DNA of 38,149 nucleotides from Gammaproteobacteria bacterium (GTDB taxonomy: Bacteria; Pseudomonadota; Gammaproteobacteria; UBA6429; Thiohalophilaceae): NCBI GenBank assembly GCA_026197095.1, contig JAPHTF010000134.1:1-38149 (forward strand), read 5' to 3'. Shown piece after piece: positions 6,826-13,249 of the stretch. A model generated the notes under the pieces. The model did no database searches and was not told the origin of the DNA. It saw only the letters and a list, made by a program, of their open reading frames with translations. Numbering within the stretch: the stretch's first letter is position 1; each line of letters begins with the position of its first letter. The position numbers and the translations under genes are program-made.

Positions 6826-7725
6826 ATGGTTAAAAAACGTGGATTAGGTAAAGGGCTGGAAGCATTATTAGGCTCAGGCGTGACGAACTTAAAAGATGAT
6901 GTTGTTCCTGCAGCAACAGTTAAATCTACTGCTTCAGACACAGATTCAGAATTTCAACATTTAGCAATTGATGTTATTCAGCGTGGCCGTTATCAGCCAC
7001 GAACAAACTTTAATCTTGATGCACTTCAAGAATTAGCAGATTCCATTAAAGCGCAAGGCGTGGTGCAACCGATTGTGGTGCGTCCACTATCCGCGACGCC
7101 GGGTCAATATGAATTAGTGGCGGGTGAAAGACGTTGGCGTGCAGCACAACTTGCTGAGTTGCATGTAATTCCTGCTATCGTGCGTGATATTTCTGATCAA
7201 GAAACCATGGCGATTGCATTAATTGAAAATATTCAACGTCAGGAACTTAATCCGCTTGAAGAAGCAAAAGCATTAGTACGTTTAGTCGAAGAATTTGGTT
7301 TAACACATCAGGAAGCTGCCGACGCAGTTGGCCGTTCACGCGTATCGGTTTCAAATCTTTTACGTTTGTTAACACTAGAAACTGATGTGCAGCATATGCT
7401 GGAAGATGGCCAAATTGAAATGGGTCATGCGCGCGCGATTTTGGGTTTAGAATCAAAAAAACAATTACAAGCGGCAAGAGAAGTAGCGAACAAAGGTTTA
7501 TCTGTACGTGAAACTGAACAACTCGTACGTCGTTTAAATAAACCTGAAAGTGACAAACCTGAAAAAACGGGTACAGATCCTGACACACGGCGCTTACAAG
7601 AAGACTTGTCTGAAAAGCTCGGTGCTAAAGTTGTGTTCCAACATGGCGCAAATGGTAAAGGTAAAATGCTGATTCATTATAATAGTATTGATGAACTCGA
7701 TGGCATTTTAGATCACATTAAATAA
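6826..7725 (+). CDS. parB: ParB (Spo0J) parS-binding CTPase
   Basis: A 299-residue chromosomal ParB. Residues 1-10 are basic (KKRGLGKGLEALLG), the ParA-stimulating end. The CTP-binding ParB/Srx domain includes GERRWRAAQ (box I/II type) and ENIQRQELNPLEEA. The helix-turn-helix LTHQEAADAVGRSRVSVSNL binds parS. The C-terminal part is the dimerisation domain. It is 40 bases after parA and surely co-transcribed. I found no convincing parS (consensus TGTTTCACGTGAAACA) inside the window, so sites are probably to the left or elsewhere. There is no clear terminator after the stop. Confidence 0.97.
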   Translation: MVKKRGLGKGLEALLGSGVTNLKDDVVPAATVKSTASDTDSEFQHLAIDVIQRGRYQPRTNFNLDALQELADSIKAQGVVQPIVVRPLSATPGQYELVAGERRWRAAQLAELHVIPAIVRDISDQETMAIALIENIQRQELNPLEEAKALVRLVEEFGLTHQEAADAVGRSRVSVSNLLRLLTLETDVQHMLEDGQIEMGHARAILGLESKKQLQAAREVANKGLSVRETEQLVRRLNKPESDKPEKTGTDPDTRRLQEDLSEKLGAKVVFQHGANGKGKMLIHYNSIDELDGILDHIK

Positions 7726-7920
7726 GCGTGATTTTTTCCTTATATCTATCTAACTATTATTTCTTTATTGCTTCATTAAAATAGATATTAACAATTTACT
7801 CTTGTTTTCATATCCTTTTTATTATGCGATGTACTCCACATAATTTGCTTGATCGATACTATATATTTCATCTCACTTCATAATATAAAAATTAAAATTA
7901 AGGACTAAAGAGGAAACAGG

Positions 7921-8289
7921 ATGAAAAATATAATAAAAGCATTTTTAGCAATTTCAATTTTAAGTATGGGTCAATCAGCATTGGCCGAAACAAAAATTGA
8001 AGCAATGGTGGGAACCTGGAAATGGGCAGACTTTACTATTCGTGTTGGAAAATGTGATAAAACAAAAGTATGTGCAAAAGTTGTTTCAGGCCCCAAAAAT
8101 GTTGGCTTGCAAATGATTCAATCAAAACTCACTCCAGCTGATGGAAGTTTTGTTGGGAAGATTGCGCATCCACAAACAGGCAATACTTATAATTCTAAAA
8201 TATCAATGTTAAGTACGGATGTTTGGCATATTGATGGTTGTACAGATGCAAATGTTTGCGCAAGCGGGGATTTTAAGCGCGTTCAATAA
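7921..8289 (+). CDS. secreted DUF2147-like small protein
   Basis: A 122-residue protein with a signal peptide (KNIIKAFLAISILSMGQSALA, cleavage near 22), probably periplasmic. The mature part resembles a short DUF2147-type beta-barrel: MVGTWKW near the start, a Cys pair (KCDKTKVC), then GKIAHPQTGNTYNSKISM and a final Cys pair (GCTDANVC). The four cysteines could make two disulfides. The function is unknown for the family. A good AGAGGAAACAGG lies just before the ATG. It follows parB by 195 bases and ends in a strong terminator, so it is a separate unit. The family assignment is moderate. Confidence 0.7.
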   Translation: MKNIIKAFLAISILSMGQSALAETKIEAMVGTWKWADFTIRVGKCDKTKVCAKVVSGPKNVGLQMIQSKLTPADGSFVGKIAHPQTGNTYNSKISMLSTDVWHIDGCTDANVCASGDFKRVQ

Positions 8290-8305
8290 GTATTATTTGT
8301 TAAAT

Positions 8306-8336
8306 AAAAAACCGGGTTTATCTACCCGGCTTTTTT
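8306..8336. terminator. intrinsic terminator between convergent genes
   Basis: The stem CCGGGT (8312-8317) / ACCCGG (8324-8329) has a 6-base loop and is followed by C and T6. A-tracts on the left side make it usable from the minus strand too, where the 121-residue membrane gene ends at 8363. Confidence 0.85.
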
Positions 8337-8362
8337 ATACCTGGAATTATTTTATTCAAAAT

Positions 8363-8728
8363 TTATGCAGGGGTGTTATGTGAAACGTTTATAGATGCCA
8401 GGTATTTTATAATTAAAGTTGCAGCAAGCAATGATGCGCCAATTTGCCAAAAGCTCACTAAAATAAATTCGAATTTAGTCGAGTCACCAAAGTTAACGGT
8501 TGGCGGCATGTTTAAGAAATATCCTGCTACTTGCGCGACTAAAAAGAACACCGCTGTTGTTAAAGCAATTCGAACCGACCAAAGAATGGTTTTTTGCGTA
8601 TCCATTTTTAAAACGATATTTGCAATAACAAAGAGTAAACCTATTGTTGCAACAACAATCCCTACCCACATAACCGGCTTCATAAACGGCATCATTGCAA
8701 CCATCATATCTATCAGTATATCTTTCAT
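8363..8728 (-). CDS. three-helix inner-membrane protein of unknown function
   Basis: A 121-residue hydrophobic protein. Three membrane segments are visible: about 15-40 (VMWVGIVVATIGLLFVIANI), 48-73 (SVRIALTTAVFFLVAQVAGY) and 87-111 (ILVSFWQIGASLLAATLIIK). The ATG is preceded on the minus strand by AAGGAA at good spacing. This favours it over an overlapping plus-strand frame at 8373-8780, which has no ribosome site. It is convergent with the DUF2147-like gene and divergent from the Crp/Fnr regulator. I do not recognise the family. Confidence 0.7.
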   Translation of the reverse strand: MKDILIDMMVAMMPFMKPVMWVGIVVATIGLLFVIANIVLKMDTQKTILWSVRIALTTAVFFLVAQVAGYFLNMPPTVNFGDSTKFEFILVSFWQIGASLLAATLIIKYLASINVSHNTPA

Positions 8729-8947
8729 ACTATTTCCTTATTTATTATTAGTTTTTATTCAATTAAGCATATTAACGTAGCTATTAGAAAGGATTAATGT
8801 ATAAGGTGCTGAAAGGAGAAGTAGTTCACTAATAAATTTAATGGTACCTGTTTTATTAATAGATGTAATAAAAATCACAGACGCTTGATTAATATTCAAT
8901 CATGCTATACAAGTAACATCGTTGGAAAAATCAATATTAAAGCGACT

Positions 8948-9706
8948 ATGCCCTCTTCTGATTTAAATAATTTACAAGCCAATATTGCAGGACCATGCAT
9001 GGATAAACCTGCCGATATTCGTTGTGCCACATGCATTATGGATACATCATACTATTTTAATGAATTAAGTTTGCAGGCCAAGCACGATTTACAGCCTAGC
9101 TTAAGTCTTAAGCATTTCAAGAAGAAAGACATGTTATATAAAGAAGGCGATGCCAGTAGCCATTTATATATTTTATTAACGGGTGAAGTGAAAGTTTATA
9201 AAACATTTCCGAATGGTAAACAGCAAATCCATAAACTGGTTCAAATTCCCGGTGATCTTATTGCGTGTGAAGATTTATATTTACATGCTCATGGCAGTTC
9301 TGCTGAAGCACTAAATGATGTGAGCGTGTGTTACTTAAAAAATGAAGATTTACAAAAAAGTATAGAACGGTATAAAGAGATTTCAGATACCATGATGCAG
9401 GCTATGTCGCGTAGTTTAAATGCATATATAAGGCATATTGCTAATCTTGGGCAGAAAAATGCATTGGAACGTTTAGCATCATATATCGTGTTTTTAAGTG
9501 AATCACATCATGAACGTCAATTGAAAAGTAATGACTTAAATGATTCTTTATCCCGTGTTGAGTTGGCGGATATGCTGGGTGTGACACAAAGAACATTAAT
9601 AAGAAGTATCAAGCAGCTTGAATTAGCAAATTATATAAGTATTAGTAAAGAAGGTTTTTGCATACTTGATTTACAGGCATTGGAAAACATCAGTTCCGGA
9701 ATATAA
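8948..9706 (+). CDS. Crp/Fnr-family regulator with FNR-like cysteines
   Basis: A 252-residue regulator (FNR of E. coli is 250). The start chosen is the ATG at 8948; a longer frame from TTG at 8885 adds 21 residues but has no ribosome site. N-terminal cysteines Cys17, Cys26 and Cys29 (C-X8-C-X2-C), plus Cys128 in DVSVCYL, which aligns with FNR Cys122, suggest an oxygen- or NO-sensing Fe-S cluster. The spacing differs from FNR (C-X2-C-X5-C). Residues 50-150 form the cyclic-nucleotide-type barrel and a long dimer helix follows. The C-terminal HTH is SRVELADMLGVTQRTLIRSI. In the recognition helix FNR's Glu209 and Ser212 are replaced by Arg and Ile, so the DNA target is probably not the standard TTGAT box. 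It likely regulates the downstream molybdoenzyme. Confidence 0.88.
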   Translation: MPSSDLNNLQANIAGPCMDKPADIRCATCIMDTSYYFNELSLQAKHDLQPSLSLKHFKKKDMLYKEGDASSHLYILLTGEVKVYKTFPNGKQQIHKLVQIPGDLIACEDLYLHAHGSSAEALNDVSVCYLKNEDLQKSIERYKEISDTMMQAMSRSLNAYIRHIANLGQKNALERLASYIVFLSESHHERQLKSNDLNDSLSRVELADMLGVTQRTLIRSIKQLELANYISISKEGFCILDLQALENISSGI

Positions 9707-9829
9707 TATCTCTCCCCCCGCTTCATTACTTCATTTTAATCTTGTCATGAATAATACCCGATTATATAGACAAAGATTGCTGTGTATAAAAACAAACAGT
9801 TAAATAAGATTTCATTAATATTTAGAATT

Positions 9830-9843
9830 TTGATCTGGATCTT
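9830..9843 (+). promoter_or_regulatory. FNR/ANR-box-like site upstream of the molybdoenzyme gene
   Basis: TTGAT-CTGG-ATCTT matches 8 of the 10 defined bases of the FNR consensus TTGAT-N4-ATCAA. It lies 177 bases before the ATG at 10020, inside the 313-base gap (9707-10019). It may anaerobically activate the molybdoenzyme operon. Binding is inferred. Confidence 0.4.
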
Positions 9844-9878
9844 GTTTTTAAAATTATTTTTATATTTTGTTTAACAGA

Positions 9879-9890
9879 TGACATTTGTCA
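9879..9890 (+). promoter_or_regulatory. second Crp/Fnr-type palindrome
   Basis: TGACATTTGTCA keeps the TGA-N6-TCA core common to Crp/Fnr sites and extends to TGACA / TGTCA arms. Its centre is about 42 bases upstream of a start that would follow a weak -10 AATTAT (9915-9920). That is the usual place for an activator site. Suggestive only. Confidence 0.35.
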
Positions 9891-9934
9891 TTGATCACAT
9901 TCTTCCATCTACGTAATTATCAATTCACATTGAA

Positions 9935-9968
9935 ATTAAAGCTTAAAATTTTTAAGCGAAGCTTTAAT
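9935..9968 (+). repeat. inverted repeat with two competing hairpins in the leader
   Basis: ATTAAAGCTT (9935-9944) pairs perfectly with AAGCTTTAAT (9959-9968) over 10 bases. An alternative 7-base stem GCTTAAA (9941-9947) / TTTAAGC (9951-9957) uses part of the same left arm. The two exclude each other. The element ends 51 bases before the molybdoenzyme ATG and could act as an RNA switch or as an operator. There is no T-run, so it is not an ordinary terminator. Confidence 0.4.
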
Positions 9969-10019
9969 CATCATAACCAAATAATGCTTTTAAATTTAAA
10001 TGGGTGTAGGTGGAGTACT

Positions 10020-12491
10020 ATGGATTCAAATGACAAAAGTATAAATGTAAAGGTGTTCGATAAAGACGAACTGGAAAAACTGAAAAAAGATCCAAATATT
10101 TGTAATCACGGGCGACGCAGTTTTTTGAAATGGAGTGCAATTGTTTCATCACAAGCCGTTATTGGTGGTGGCTTAGTCAGTTTAATTAGCAAAGAAGTAA
10201 GAGCGGATGATAATTTTGATAACGTCACACAATGGATATATTCCGTTTGTGGTTATTGTTCATTTGGTTGTGGATTAAATATTGGTGTTAATGCAGAAGG
10301 AAAAGCGGTTGCTGTACGTGGTAATGAAAAACATCCAACCAATAATGGCCGGGTTTGTGTTAAAGGGTTATTTGAAGACAAAATTTTAGAAGCTCCTGAT
10401 CGAGGTAAGTGGCCGTTAATCAGAGACGCCAATGGTGACTGGAAAAAAATTACCTGGGATGAAGCTACGACTATTTTAAGTCAAAAAATCATTGATGGTG
10501 TTGATGCTAAAGGGGCTGATTCAATAGCAACGTATAATACGGGCCAATGGACGCTCGAAGAATATTATGCCTTTGGTAAGCTGGCAAAAGGCGGTATTGG
10601 TACCGGCACCATGGATTCGAATACCCGTTTATGCATGGCCGCGGCGGTTGTGGGTTACTTAACCACGTTTGGCTCTGATGGTCCCCCCGGTTGTTATGAT
10701 GATGTAGAAGCAACAGATTGTTTGTTTGTTTTTGGTATGAATCCCGCAGAGATGCATCCTCAGCTCTGGCGAAGAATAGCTAAAGCACGTCGAAGTTTAA
10801 ATCCTCCCAAACTCATTGTTGTTGATCCTCGTCGCACACAAACGGCACGTAGTGCGGATTTACATCTGGCATTAAAACCAGGCACTAACCTGGCTCTGAT
10901 TAATGGTATTGCTCAGCAGATTATTGCGAATAACTGGACTGATAATACTTACATCAATGCGCACACCCGAAATTATGATGCTATGGCAGCAACTGTGGCT
11001 AAATATACGCCTGAGTATGTTTCTGAAATTACAGGATGTCCTGCAGCGGATATTGCCTTGGCCGCGAAATGGATTGGTGAATCTCCCGAAGTCTTATCGT
11101 TATTTATTCAAGGTGTTTACCAGTCGATGGGTGCCACTGATACGGTACGTATGATTTGTGCCATACATTTGATTATGGGCAAGATTGGTCGTCCCGGTTC
11201 AGCGCCTTTTAGTATTACGGGCCAGGCGACCGCAATGAGTAATCGTGAAGCCGGTGCCTCTTCGGCATTGGCAGGCTACCGTAATTATTACAACCCCGAT
11301 CATGTGGGCTGGTTGGAAGATTTCTGGAATGTGCCAAGAGGCAAAATTCCCCCGCATAAACCCACTGTTATTACGTCGAACAAAGATTACCAGGATATTA
11401 ATAGCCAGGTAGAAATGATGCGTAACGGTGAGCTCAGTATGTTCTGGGTTCAGTGTACTAATCCGGCGGTAACCTTACCGGATCTCAATAAACTCTATTC
11501 CTATATGGATTTTAATAATCCTAACCGGCCTTATATCGTGGTGCAGGATATTTATGAACCGATGGAGTGTACTCATTTTGCTGATATGTTTTTACCCGCT
11601 GCTATGTGGGGTGAAAAAACGGGTGTTTACACTTGCTCGGAACGTAAAGTGAATTTGGGTCGACAAGCAGTCCAGCCTGCTGGTTATGAATTACGAGCTG
11701 ATGGTTATGGCGCTTATGCAGATTTGGAAATAACCAAAATGGTCGCAGAAAAAATTGCCTCCATGGATTCACGTTTTGCCACTAAAAACGGCCAGCCATT
11801 AGTCACCTTTAATTCATATGAAGAAGCCTTTGAAGAGTGGAAACAATGCTCAGCTGGAACAATTTGTGACATGAGTGGTATGACTTATGATCGTATAGAA
11901 GCCAATCAAGGGATTCAGTGGCCCTCAACCCCAGGTAATATTTACGGTGGAACACGCCTGTACACGGATGGCAGATTTAACACCAACTGGGCCGATACCC
12001 AGGGTGGTACGCAGGATCAACCCTGGATAGATCCCGATAATTTGAGCCGGGCCTATTTATGGGCCAGGGACTATATCGAAGCACCGGAAGTACCTGATAG
12101 CCAATATCCTTTCTGGTTAATCACGGGGCGGGTCATTGAGCATTTCCATAGCCGGACTAAAACCAAGCGTGTGCCGCAATTACATGAAATGGTACCGGAA
12201 AATTATGTTGAAATGCATCCAGAAGATGCCGCTGCTATGAATGTGGTCTCCGGAGATATGATTCGACTGAACACACGTCGTGGTGAAATCGTTATCAAGG
12301 CGTTGGTGGTAGGAACGGTACAAAAAGGTCAGGTATTTGTGCCGATGCACTTTGCAGATCTTGATCCGCAAGATAAAGCACAAAATGGCGGTCGATTAAC
12401 AGCCACAAACCGTTTAACCATGAACTGGGTCGATCCGGATTGTAAACAACCTATCTATAAACACTGTGCCGTTAGTCTGGCTAAGGCGTAA
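10020..12491 (+). CDS. NapA-family periplasmic molybdopterin oxidoreductase (nitrate reductase-like)
   Basis: An 823-residue enzyme (E. coli NapA 828) from the ATG at 10020, which has GGTGGAG upstream; a longer TTG-started frame from 9885 has no such support. A Tat signal GRRSFLKW (31-38) follows an unusually long polar lead. The 4Fe-4S motif is Cys77, Cys80, Cys84, Cys113 (C-X2-C-X3-C-X28-C), followed by Lys115. NTRLCMA holds Cys205, the expected Mo ligand. Further NapA-like blocks are SITGQATAMSNREAG, FLPAAMWGEKTGVY, TGRVIEHFHSRTKTKRVPQL and the end NRLTMNWVDP...KHCAV. NapA reduces nitrate to nitrite using two Mo-bis-MGD pterins. The GQPSA and nearby residues differ, so the substrate is uncertain. 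No napD, napB or napC is present in the window; a tetraheme cytochrome gene follows 12 bases later. Confidence 0.9.
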   Translation: MDSNDKSINVKVFDKDELEKLKKDPNICNHGRRSFLKWSAIVSSQAVIGGGLVSLISKEVRADDNFDNVTQWIYSVCGYCSFGCGLNIGVNAEGKAVAVRGNEKHPTNNGRVCVKGLFEDKILEAPDRGKWPLIRDANGDWKKITWDEATTILSQKIIDGVDAKGADSIATYNTGQWTLEEYYAFGKLAKGGIGTGTMDSNTRLCMAAAVVGYLTTFGSDGPPGCYDDVEATDCLFVFGMNPAEMHPQLWRRIAKARRSLNPPKLIVVDPRRTQTARSADLHLALKPGTNLALINGIAQQIIANNWTDNTYINAHTRNYDAMAATVAKYTPEYVSEITGCPAADIALAAKWIGESPEVLSLFIQGVYQSMGATDTVRMICAIHLIMGKIGRPGSAPFSITGQATAMSNREAGASSALAGYRNYYNPDHVGWLEDFWNVPRGKIPPHKPTVITSNKDYQDINSQVEMMRNGELSMFWVQCTNPAVTLPDLNKLYSYMDFNNPNRPYIVVQDIYEPMECTHFADMFLPAAMWGEKTGVYTCSERKVNLGRQAVQPAGYELRADGYGAYADLEITKMVAEKIASMDSRFATKNGQPLVTFNSYEEAFEEWKQCSAGTICDMSGMTYDRIEANQGIQWPSTPGNIYGGTRLYTDGRFNTNWADTQGGTQDQPWIDPDNLSRAYLWARDYIEAPEVPDSQYPFWLITGRVIEHFHSRTKTKRVPQLHEMVPENYVEMHPEDAAAMNVVSGDMIRLNTRRGEIVIKALVVGTVQKGQVFVPMHFADLDPQDKAQNGGRLTATNRLTMNWVDPDCKQPIYKHCAVSLAKA

Positions 12492-12503
12492 TGGAGGAGA
12501 AGA

Positions 12504-12950
12504 ATGATGAAACATATAAATAAATCCATTAAATCTGTACTGGCTAGCTTAATGATCATGGCATTGGCTTCACCATTAATAGCTGCTCCGCCGACATCAT
12601 CACCAACGCCTGTTTTTGATACCAGTTTTGCGATTGAATTTAGCTACTCATGTTTAAGTGGTGGCTGTCATGAAACTAATCAAACACTTGTCGATGAACA
12701 TGCAGCATCAAAAATGACGCATACCATGGTGAAATGTAATGCCTGTCATGGTACGCATACTGCTGAAACGGTTGGATTGGAAAAACCTAATCTTACTGGT
12801 TATTACCCTGGTATTGGAGCAACGGGTTATAAGGTAGATACCGATCGTTGCAAAGCGTGCCATAACAATGAACACACTGGTGGAGGGAAAAAATCAGGTG
12901 ATAATTGCTATAGTTGTCATACACCACATGTTTTTGATGCAGGTAGATAA
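12504..12950 (+). CDS. periplasmic tetraheme cytochrome c, partner of the NapA-like enzyme
   Basis: A 148-residue protein with a signal peptide (cleavage near residue 27, after LASPLIA). Four heme-attachment motifs are present: CLSGGCH (50-56, a CX4CH form), CNACH (78-82), CKACH (116-120) and CYSCH (135-139). Several other His residues could be distal ligands. It probably carries electrons to the preceding molybdoenzyme, with which it shares an operon (12-base gap, GGAGGAGA ribosome site). The arrangement recalls NapM of some deltaproteobacterial nap operons. It is not diheme NapB, nor membrane-anchored NapC. Either of two adjacent ATGs (12504, 12507) could start it. Confidence 0.9.
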   Translation: MMKHINKSIKSVLASLMIMALASPLIAAPPTSSPTPVFDTSFAIEFSYSCLSGGCHETNQTLVDEHAASKMTHTMVKCNACHGTHTAETVGLEKPNLTGYYPGIGATGYKVDTDRCKACHNNEHTGGGKKSGDNCYSCHTPHVFDAGR

Positions 12951-12983
12951 AACGTATAGGTAATTTGGCTATCATTTGCGGGA

Positions 12984-13015
12984 AGCCAGATCAGGTAAAA
13001 TGATCTGGCTTTTTT
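12984..13015 (+). terminator. strong intrinsic terminator of the molybdoenzyme operon
   Basis: A perfect 10-base stem AGCCAGATCA (12984-12993) / TGATCTGGCT (13001-13010) with a 7-base loop runs straight into a T-run. It separates the accessory block from the ATP synthase operon. Confidence 0.93.
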
Positions 13016-13157
13016 ATGAAAAAGAGCAGAATTATTTTATGAAATAAAAGTAAATTATTGAGTAAAACTTAAACATTTTAAAATTATGTGTATTTGGCAC
13101 TGTTATTTAAGACTTTGCTAATATTCCGCCTAATTTATTGGGTTATTAAACAATTTA

Positions 13158-13186
13158 TTGACCCCTATTCGTGGCTCGATTATAAT
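13158..13186 (+). promoter_or_regulatory. strong sigma70-type promoter of the atp operon
   Basis: TTGACC (13158-13163) and a perfect TATAAT (13181-13186) are 17 bases apart. Transcription would start near 13193, about 57 bases before atpI. The rest of the gap 12951-13249 holds only the terminator above and AT-rich sequence. Confidence 0.85.
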
Positions 13187-13249
13187 TCGCGCGCCTTGAG
13201 CCTATAGGTAAGCTAGGCAAATCTGGTGGTGTGGAGAGTCTCTTTTACA

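Follow-up and report, generated by a model that had tools for sequence, protein, structure and literature searches.

A NapA-like molybdoenzyme with its own tetraheme cytochrome and regulator: a candidate accessory periplasmic nitrate reductase in Gammaproteobacteria

What does a NapA-like molybdoenzyme contribute when it is encoded beside a tetraheme cytochrome, apart from the usual nap genes, in a genome that already has a canonical nap operon? The question is raised by contig JAPHTF010000134.1 (38,149 nucleotides; assembly GCA_026197095.1, Gammaproteobacteria bacterium, Thiohalophilaceae), the whole of which is called the window here; G000 is its own genome. The cassette at this locus is read, with modest confidence, as an FNR-controlled accessory periplasmic nitrate reductase that forms a clade separate from NapA and has its own tetraheme carrier. 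The assignment to nitrate draws on shared residues and on the genes around the nearest clades, not on activity. Regulator, enzyme and cytochrome genes all run in one direction and are flanked by parB and ATP synthase genes:

8885-9706, + strand: FNR/CRP-type transcription regulator (cNMP_binding and HTH_Crp_2 above cut-off); start codon uncertain, the mechanical open reading frame (ORF) beginning at TTG
9879-9893, + strand: conserved operator TGACATTTGTCATTG, TGA-N6-TCA, palindromic and exact in 16 of 21 loci
9915-9920, + strand: possible -10 hexamer AATTAT, a putative promoter element in partly conserved columns of 16 loci aligned on the operator
10020-12491, + strand: NapA-like molybdopterin oxidoreductase, 823 aa (Pfam domains, alignments, residue check, trees)
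12504-12950, + strand: tetraheme cytochrome c, 148 aa (heme motifs, candidate distal His ligands)
6826-7725: parB, recognised by eye
from 13226 onward: ATP synthase genes (the congener's copy has a Pfam match to ATP synthase I chain)

The cassette set comprised 21 loci, namely 18 contig loci, the window and the loci of genomes G175 and G133. Of the 21 cytochrome sequences aligned, L041 is the reverse complement of L014, the locus of the cassette-carrying congener G012, and is a duplicate row, which leaves 20 distinct cytochrome loci. An earlier note on this DNA had described a NapA-like enzyme with Cys205 and an Fe-S motif, paired with a tetraheme cytochrome, and both genes were borne out by Pfam domains, residues and heme motifs. 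The longest mechanical ORF of the enzyme opens at 9885; the ATG at 10020 is preferred because homologs and the position of the operator agree with it. The enzyme carries the Molybdop_Fe4S4, Molybdopterin and Molydop_binding domains. Its Fe-S cysteines, read from the sequence, are C77, C80, C84 and C113, its Mo ligand is Cys205 followed by Met206, and a twin-arginine motif lies at R32-R33 by motif reading alone. The twin-arginine translocation (Tat) motif, 4Fe-4S cysteines and Cys Mo ligand expected of NapA are all present.

Of the four heme motifs of the cytochrome, the first is CX4CH and the other three are CXXCH; all are kept in 20 of 20 distinct homologs. The four heme-motif histidines were likewise conserved in 20 of 20, and candidate distal His ligands at positions 73, 85, 124 and 142 were found in 20, 20, 19 and 19 of the 20. 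The cytochrome starts between a 1-base overlap with the enzyme stop and 15 bases after it in 19 of the 20 distinct loci, the exception being G133, where the start is that of a mechanical ORF. Since the 20 distinct cytochromes hold the same four motifs and the enzyme-cytochrome order was found again across differing neighbourhoods, the pairing is not due to chance. Pfam gave no match of the cytochrome to NapB (PF03892) or NapC/NirT (PF03264) and only sub-cut-off matches to MtrC-like and cytochrome c3 families; its AlphaFold model failed (mean predicted local distance difference test, pLDDT, 45) and was not used. An extra N-terminal stretch is present on the cytochrome in three of the 20 distinct loci (L006:6038-6823, L009:4791-5645 and L042:9330-10286; 261-318 aa in total), with Ig-type-like repeats in two of the three, and Pfam assigned no such domain in L042. 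The signal regions of two cytochromes (L007:6115-6627 and L016:10485-11000) have, by eye, a lipobox-like LLSCG, and these two may be lipoproteins.

A tblastn search of the window with genes of its own genome or a congener, run with a positive control, found none of napB, C, D, F, G and H; the local absence of napD, napB, napC, napG and napH had been stated before. The cytochrome had also been taken for the sole partner of the enzyme, but the regulator and the operator belong to the unit as well, judged by their recurrence beside it. The regulator lies upstream of the enzyme in 16 of 21 loci, made up of 14 of the 18 contig loci (two of them cut by the contig end), the window and G175. In L005, L014 and L017 it was unseen since the contigs end first, and in L012 and G133 it is lacking. 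Both its cNMP and Crp-type HTH domains were above the Pfam cut-off, and it scored 85 of 228 bits with the FNR profile. A GPC-x8-C-x2-C pattern and two further Cys motifs are present in 13 of 13 full-length copies, and L009 has the first pattern too. At least four cysteines are therefore conserved, spaced C-x8-C-x2-C with another Cys farther on. The cysteines of Escherichia coli FNR, C-x2-C-x5-C plus C122, are spaced differently.

The operator lies between regulator and enzyme. Besides its 16 exact copies, the site TGACATTTKTCATTG occurs with one mismatch in L009; it is missing in L011, where the regulator is present, and in L012 and G133, where the regulator is absent, and L017 has no upstream sequence. 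Genome-wide, G000, G012 and G175 each have a single exact copy, G133 and six non-carrier congeners have none, and a reversed control pattern had no occurrence in the same 10 genomes. The weight of the operator comes from its recurrence across loci, because within the window alone, at up to two mismatches, the one site found is near the 0.43 expected by chance. TGA-N6-TCA has the spacing of FNR-family sites, and the partly conserved hexamer about 30 bp downstream of the operator centre is at the distance typical of an FNR-type activator site.

The enzyme had been described as clearly of the NapA family, a placement that held up neither by profile score nor by tree. The two NapA profiles (TIGR01706 and NF010055) were its best NCBIfam matches, at 451.5 bits (cut-off 930.55) and 472.3 bits (cut-off 904), and the canonical NapA of the same genome scored 1548.5 bits. 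With the NasC-type profile it reached 400.7 of 1100 bits, a cut-off that the genome's own NasA-like enzyme also missed. Identity was 31% to the genome's own NapA, 30% to its NasA-like enzyme and about 40% to the sister clades. In a 48-row tree, 19 cassette enzymes formed one clade, sister to a G210 protein and a Deinococcus protein (98/98); these, a NirBD-linked clade and one long Cetobacterium row grouped together at 99/98. The sister group stayed (100/98) in a 30-row tree from which 18 rows, five being long branches, had been dropped, and neither tree placed the enzyme inside standard NapA. The approximately unbiased (AU) test rejected cassette with NapA (p 0.0006) and cassette with NasA (p 0.001), in trees whose NapA side is five rows and which gave long-branch warnings, also where the cassette joins the G210/Deinococcus pair. 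By profile score and tree, the cassette enzyme is outside NapA.

Residues around the active site were compared in 21 aligned proteins that take in the genome's own NapA and NasA-like enzyme together with cassette, G210 and NirBD-linked rows. C205, D220, Q368, G401, Q402, A405, R409 and E410 were invariant. The GQATAMSNREAG block, previously considered unusual, proved ordinary, since GQPNAMGGREVG stands in its place in NasA-type rows and GQCNAMGTREW in the NirBD-linked clade, with G401, Q402, A405, R409 and E410 shared by all 21. Arg409 is the counterpart of Arg354 in Desulfovibrio desulfuricans NapA, a proposed nitrate-binding place (PMC13223375). Differences were also seen. Gly221 stands where D. 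desulfuricans NapA has Glu156, and Gln364 where it has the Met of its MGxNQ block, Gln being found in NasA rows also. Tyr367 was common to cassette, G210 and Deinococcus rows only, with Asn in the other nitrate reductases (22 rows shown), and the motif QGVYQSM is common to the same three. No pocket comparison was drawn from the AlphaFold model of the enzyme because it is only moderate (pLDDT 72) and weak around the active site.

The nearest clades, which have no visible Tat motif, are mostly encoded beside nitrate or nitrite genes. The NirBD-linked enzymes (L047:1879-14192, L046 and L048-L053; 726-741 aa) are about 37-41% identical to the window enzyme. In L047 the enzyme adjoins NarK, NirB and NirD, all above cut-offs, a Fer4-DmsC fusion and a NasA-like enzyme; the seven other loci resemble it wholly or partly by eye, a NasA-like enzyme being frequent among them as well, the profile check covering L047. 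These enzymes are perhaps quinol-linked cytoplasmic nitrate reductases. The sister protein on a Deinococcus aetherius plasmid (L054), annotated as a nitrate reductase, adjoins a formate/nitrite transporter and an HPP-family protein. A further protein from G706, a 41% match with a similar N-terminus and placed in no tree, also has an HPP protein adjacent (L105). HPP proteins include a plant nitrite transporter candidate (PMC4137279), and a literature search on HPP and Deinococcus returned nothing on the Deinococcus sister enzyme.

The host already has a Nap system. A search of the window's own genome for nap genes found a canonical nap operon with its own napA, so that operon does not use the cassette subunit. 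On one contig are napF, a napD-position ORF, napA, napG and napH, and the contig ends just past napH; a napC-like gene, cut to a NapC-family fragment, stands at the end of another. No napB match was found in the genome. In G012 and G133 the order is napF-D-A-G-H-B-C, several genes being recognised by order, size and heme motifs, and the napB-position ORF of G012 scored 126 of 230 bits. An assembly gap between the ends of G000:C38 and G000:C183 (L039, L103) probably divides the operon and contains napB, the simpler reading because the contigs end after napH and in the napC-like gene while G012 holds both genes there. A Nap system lacking NapB was accordingly dropped as a candidate. The genome's NasA-like enzyme has a C-terminal NifU-like match, falls below all NCBIfam cut-offs and is named by its tree clade. 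The genome also encodes a protein with cytochrome c and cytochrome cd1 domains.

Eleven carriers were examined (G000, G012, G175, G133 and the genomes of seven more of the 18 contig loci). Canonical NapA was above cut-off in all 11. Every one also encodes a NapC/NirT-family protein, whose matches in the window's own genome lie on other contigs, and cd1-domain proteins, a family broader than NirS. Among 369 genomes of the class, 69 had NapA above cut-off (Fisher p 1.4e-8, with the three carriers of that sample left out), a test that ignores relatedness and niche, and denitrifiers may simply hold both. The carriers are probably denitrifiers because canonical NapA and cd1-domain genes are also present. 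A cytochrome c-cd1 protein of the window's own genome has as its neighbour a 590-aa protein in which a NapC/NirT domain is fused to an ethylbenzene-dehydrogenase-type heme domain (L102:5600-7372, G000:C21), and frames of 571-622 aa with a NapC/NirT domain occur in eight of the 11 carriers.

The nitrate-reductase reading of the cassette is built on which genes are present and in what order, on the heme and Tat-type motifs, and on the operator, phylogeny and co-occurrence with NapA, NapC-family and cd1-domain proteins; from these we infer substrate, electron path, oxygen sensing and use of host NapC and NapD. The regulator would probably sense low oxygen, or nitric oxide, through a cysteine-bound Fe-S cluster and would bind the single operator just upstream of the enzyme promoter. 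Enzyme and cytochrome would then be co-expressed and the folded enzyme exported by Tat. Electrons would pass from quinol through a host NapC/NirT-type quinol dehydrogenase to the tetraheme cytochrome and from there by way of the 4Fe-4S cluster to Mo-Cys205, where nitrate would be reduced to nitrite; host NapC and NapD are perhaps borrowed. The invariance of Asp220 and Arg409, the anion-site residues, in the genome's own NapA and NasA-like enzyme supports this reading.

Several observations weigh against it. A second nitrate reductase looks redundant when every carrier examined already has canonical NapA, and this redundancy argues most strongly for a different substrate, or for a different niche such as low nitrate. 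The cassette has no NapD; no nitrate gene was seen among the neighbours of the G210 sister protein; at about 40% identity the substrate of the sister clades need not carry over; and deep-branching L012 and G133 lack regulator and operator, L011 having the former without the latter. A more tentative proposal is that the cassette enzyme represents an independent origin of periplasmic nitrate reductase, outside both NapA and Asp-ligated NarG, and that the cassette has spread as a satellite, with its own regulator, operator and tetraheme carrier, that works only in canonical-Nap hosts through borrowed NapC and the NapD chaperone. Dependence on a Nap host would fit the presence of Nap in all 11 carriers and the lack of NapC and NapD in the cassette, but a common niche would account for this as well.

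The alternative that survives best, although we consider it unlikely, is a reductase of the same fold and tetraheme carrier that acts on a different oxyanion or on an oxide (examples are chlorate, selenate, nitrite and N-oxides), with canonical NapA handling nitrate. Besides the ubiquity of NapA among carriers, the pocket-near differences at Gly221 and Tyr367 speak for it, and the NapA of Campylobacter jejuni can reduce chlorate and perchlorate as well (PMC12769810). However, the sister clades adjoin nitrate or nitrite genes, Arg409, Asp220 and the Cys ligand are retained, and no neighbour at the cassette loci, most of them without annotation, suggests another oxyanion. Of the earlier suggestion that the enzyme uses another electron route or another oxyanion, the different route probably stands, and another substrate may apply. 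It is improbable that the enzyme is a divergent NapA isoform that serves the usual Nap function through another carrier, comparable to the two Nap systems of Shewanella. Its NapA profiles rank first, D. desulfuricans NapA is its best structure and sequence match, and most Shewanella hold two Nap isoforms (PMC6308320), but the score is half the NapA cut-off and the AU test, with its few NapA-side rows and meeting long branches, rejects the grouping. A periplasmic formate dehydrogenase sending electrons out through the cytochrome can be set aside as very improbable, since its model (TIGR01591) scores near those of NapA at 442 bits but below its 666.25-bit cut-off, four formate dehydrogenase rows form a separate clade in the 48-row tree, and the residue after the Mo ligand is Met, which NapA and NasA rows share, whereas of three formate dehydrogenase rows compared two have His and one Gln there.

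The cassette is sparsely distributed. Of 40 genomes from the order, several being incomplete, two have the cytochrome, and both belong to the eight of the genus. Close enzymes were found in three of 369 class genomes, from three families. A 398-genome draw of the phylum returned only the window's own genome and the G706 match at E 1e-160. A plasmid home was not supported, as the 1125 plasmid records matching the enzyme were all below 60% identity, the best listed being 40.6%. The window and G012 hold the cassette before atpI, and the window also has ORFs at 7921 and 8363 between parB and the cassette, which may or may not be part of the insert. The site is empty in two congeners, G013 and G014, and in G001, a member of the same family: atpI directly follows parB there, with 105-141 bp between them by mechanical ORFs. 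The parB-atpI junction (window 7726-13225) thus varies in the genus, being empty, occupied by the cassette, or filled with other genes: an OmpA-family gene in G008 and G011 (Pfam on G011) and an unassigned 149-aa gene in G009.

An old transfer is favoured over an old duplication with losses, both being possible, because the cassette is patchy (two of eight congeners, with empty sites) and its tree appears to conflict with host trees. In the tree of canonical NapA, G133 falls with G000 and G012 (99/98), and the NuoG tree joins it to G000 and two congeners (100/98). For the cassette, a grouping of G133 with G000 and G012 is rejected (p-AU 0.018), although this group was chosen after the identities had been seen and the cassette tree has weak inner branches. 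Old vertical inheritance with many losses is unlikely in view of the empty sites and this conflict, although conservation speaks for it. Enzyme identity to that of the window was 86-89% in seven carriers of other families or unplaced, 91% in G012, 78% in G133 and 75% in G405, and NuoG identity was 46-59% in the eight of these carriers with usable NuoG. Canonical NapA was nearly as conserved in the same genomes (mostly 78-83%, 73% in G405 and 50% in G409), cassette identity exceeded it in only 41 of 55 pairs, and four-fold sites were 31-45% identical, near saturation; recent transfer argued from identity was dropped for the conservation of NapA and this saturation. The enzyme gene had higher GC than its flanks in 13 of 13 loci measured. 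Two cassettes with differing neighbourhoods (L005 and L008) come from one metagenome-assembled genome (JAOUQA, isolate 8_1_Oct_SF_Bin73), which has two copies or is a mixed bin.

The usual marker of periplasmic nitrate reduction is napA, and surveys with profiles or primers would miss this clade or mislabel it as NapA. A second enzyme could alter nitrate use by carriers and, if it reduces nitrate, nitrate reduction moved to the periplasm on more than one occasion. The regulator, the operator and the enzyme make a compact unit that is amenable to testing in a laboratory strain.

No description of the cassette unit was found in the open-access literature searched, as far as the texts were available. 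The accessible parts of two treatments of NapA and NasA evolution (PMC12769810, PMC10100899) do not mention it, and Sporomusa NapA lies in an ordinary napGHCAD cluster unlike the cassette (PMC12780646). The Deinococcus aetherius and G210 proteins form its sister clade and share QGVYQSM; at about 40% identity they differ in having no visible twin-arginine motif, Cys-Thr for Cys-Met and transporter neighbours instead of a cytochrome. NasA/NasC share the Gln at position 364 and have a comparable conserved block, GQ-NAMGGRE, whereas the cassette enzyme has a twin-arginine motif and a separate clade. Canonical NapAB of Proteobacteria is likewise a periplasmic-type molybdenum-bis-molybdopterin guanine dinucleotide (Mo-bisMGD) enzyme with a Cys ligand and a 4Fe-4S cluster; the cassette differs in its profile score and in the tetraheme carrier that replaces diheme NapB. 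The D. desulfuricans operon, napCMADGH, has no NapB and includes a small multiheme cytochrome, NapM. The role of NapM is not clear according to PMC13223375. D. desulfuricans NapA (2nap), a Tat-type periplasmic enzyme with a Cys ligand, is the closest solved structure by sequence and by fold, but the cassette enzyme is only about 33% identical to it, forms a separate clade, has no napC, D, G or H adjacent and comes with its own FNR-type regulator and operator. The cassette falls among periplasmic-type Cys-ligated Mo-bisMGD reductases with a multiheme carrier.

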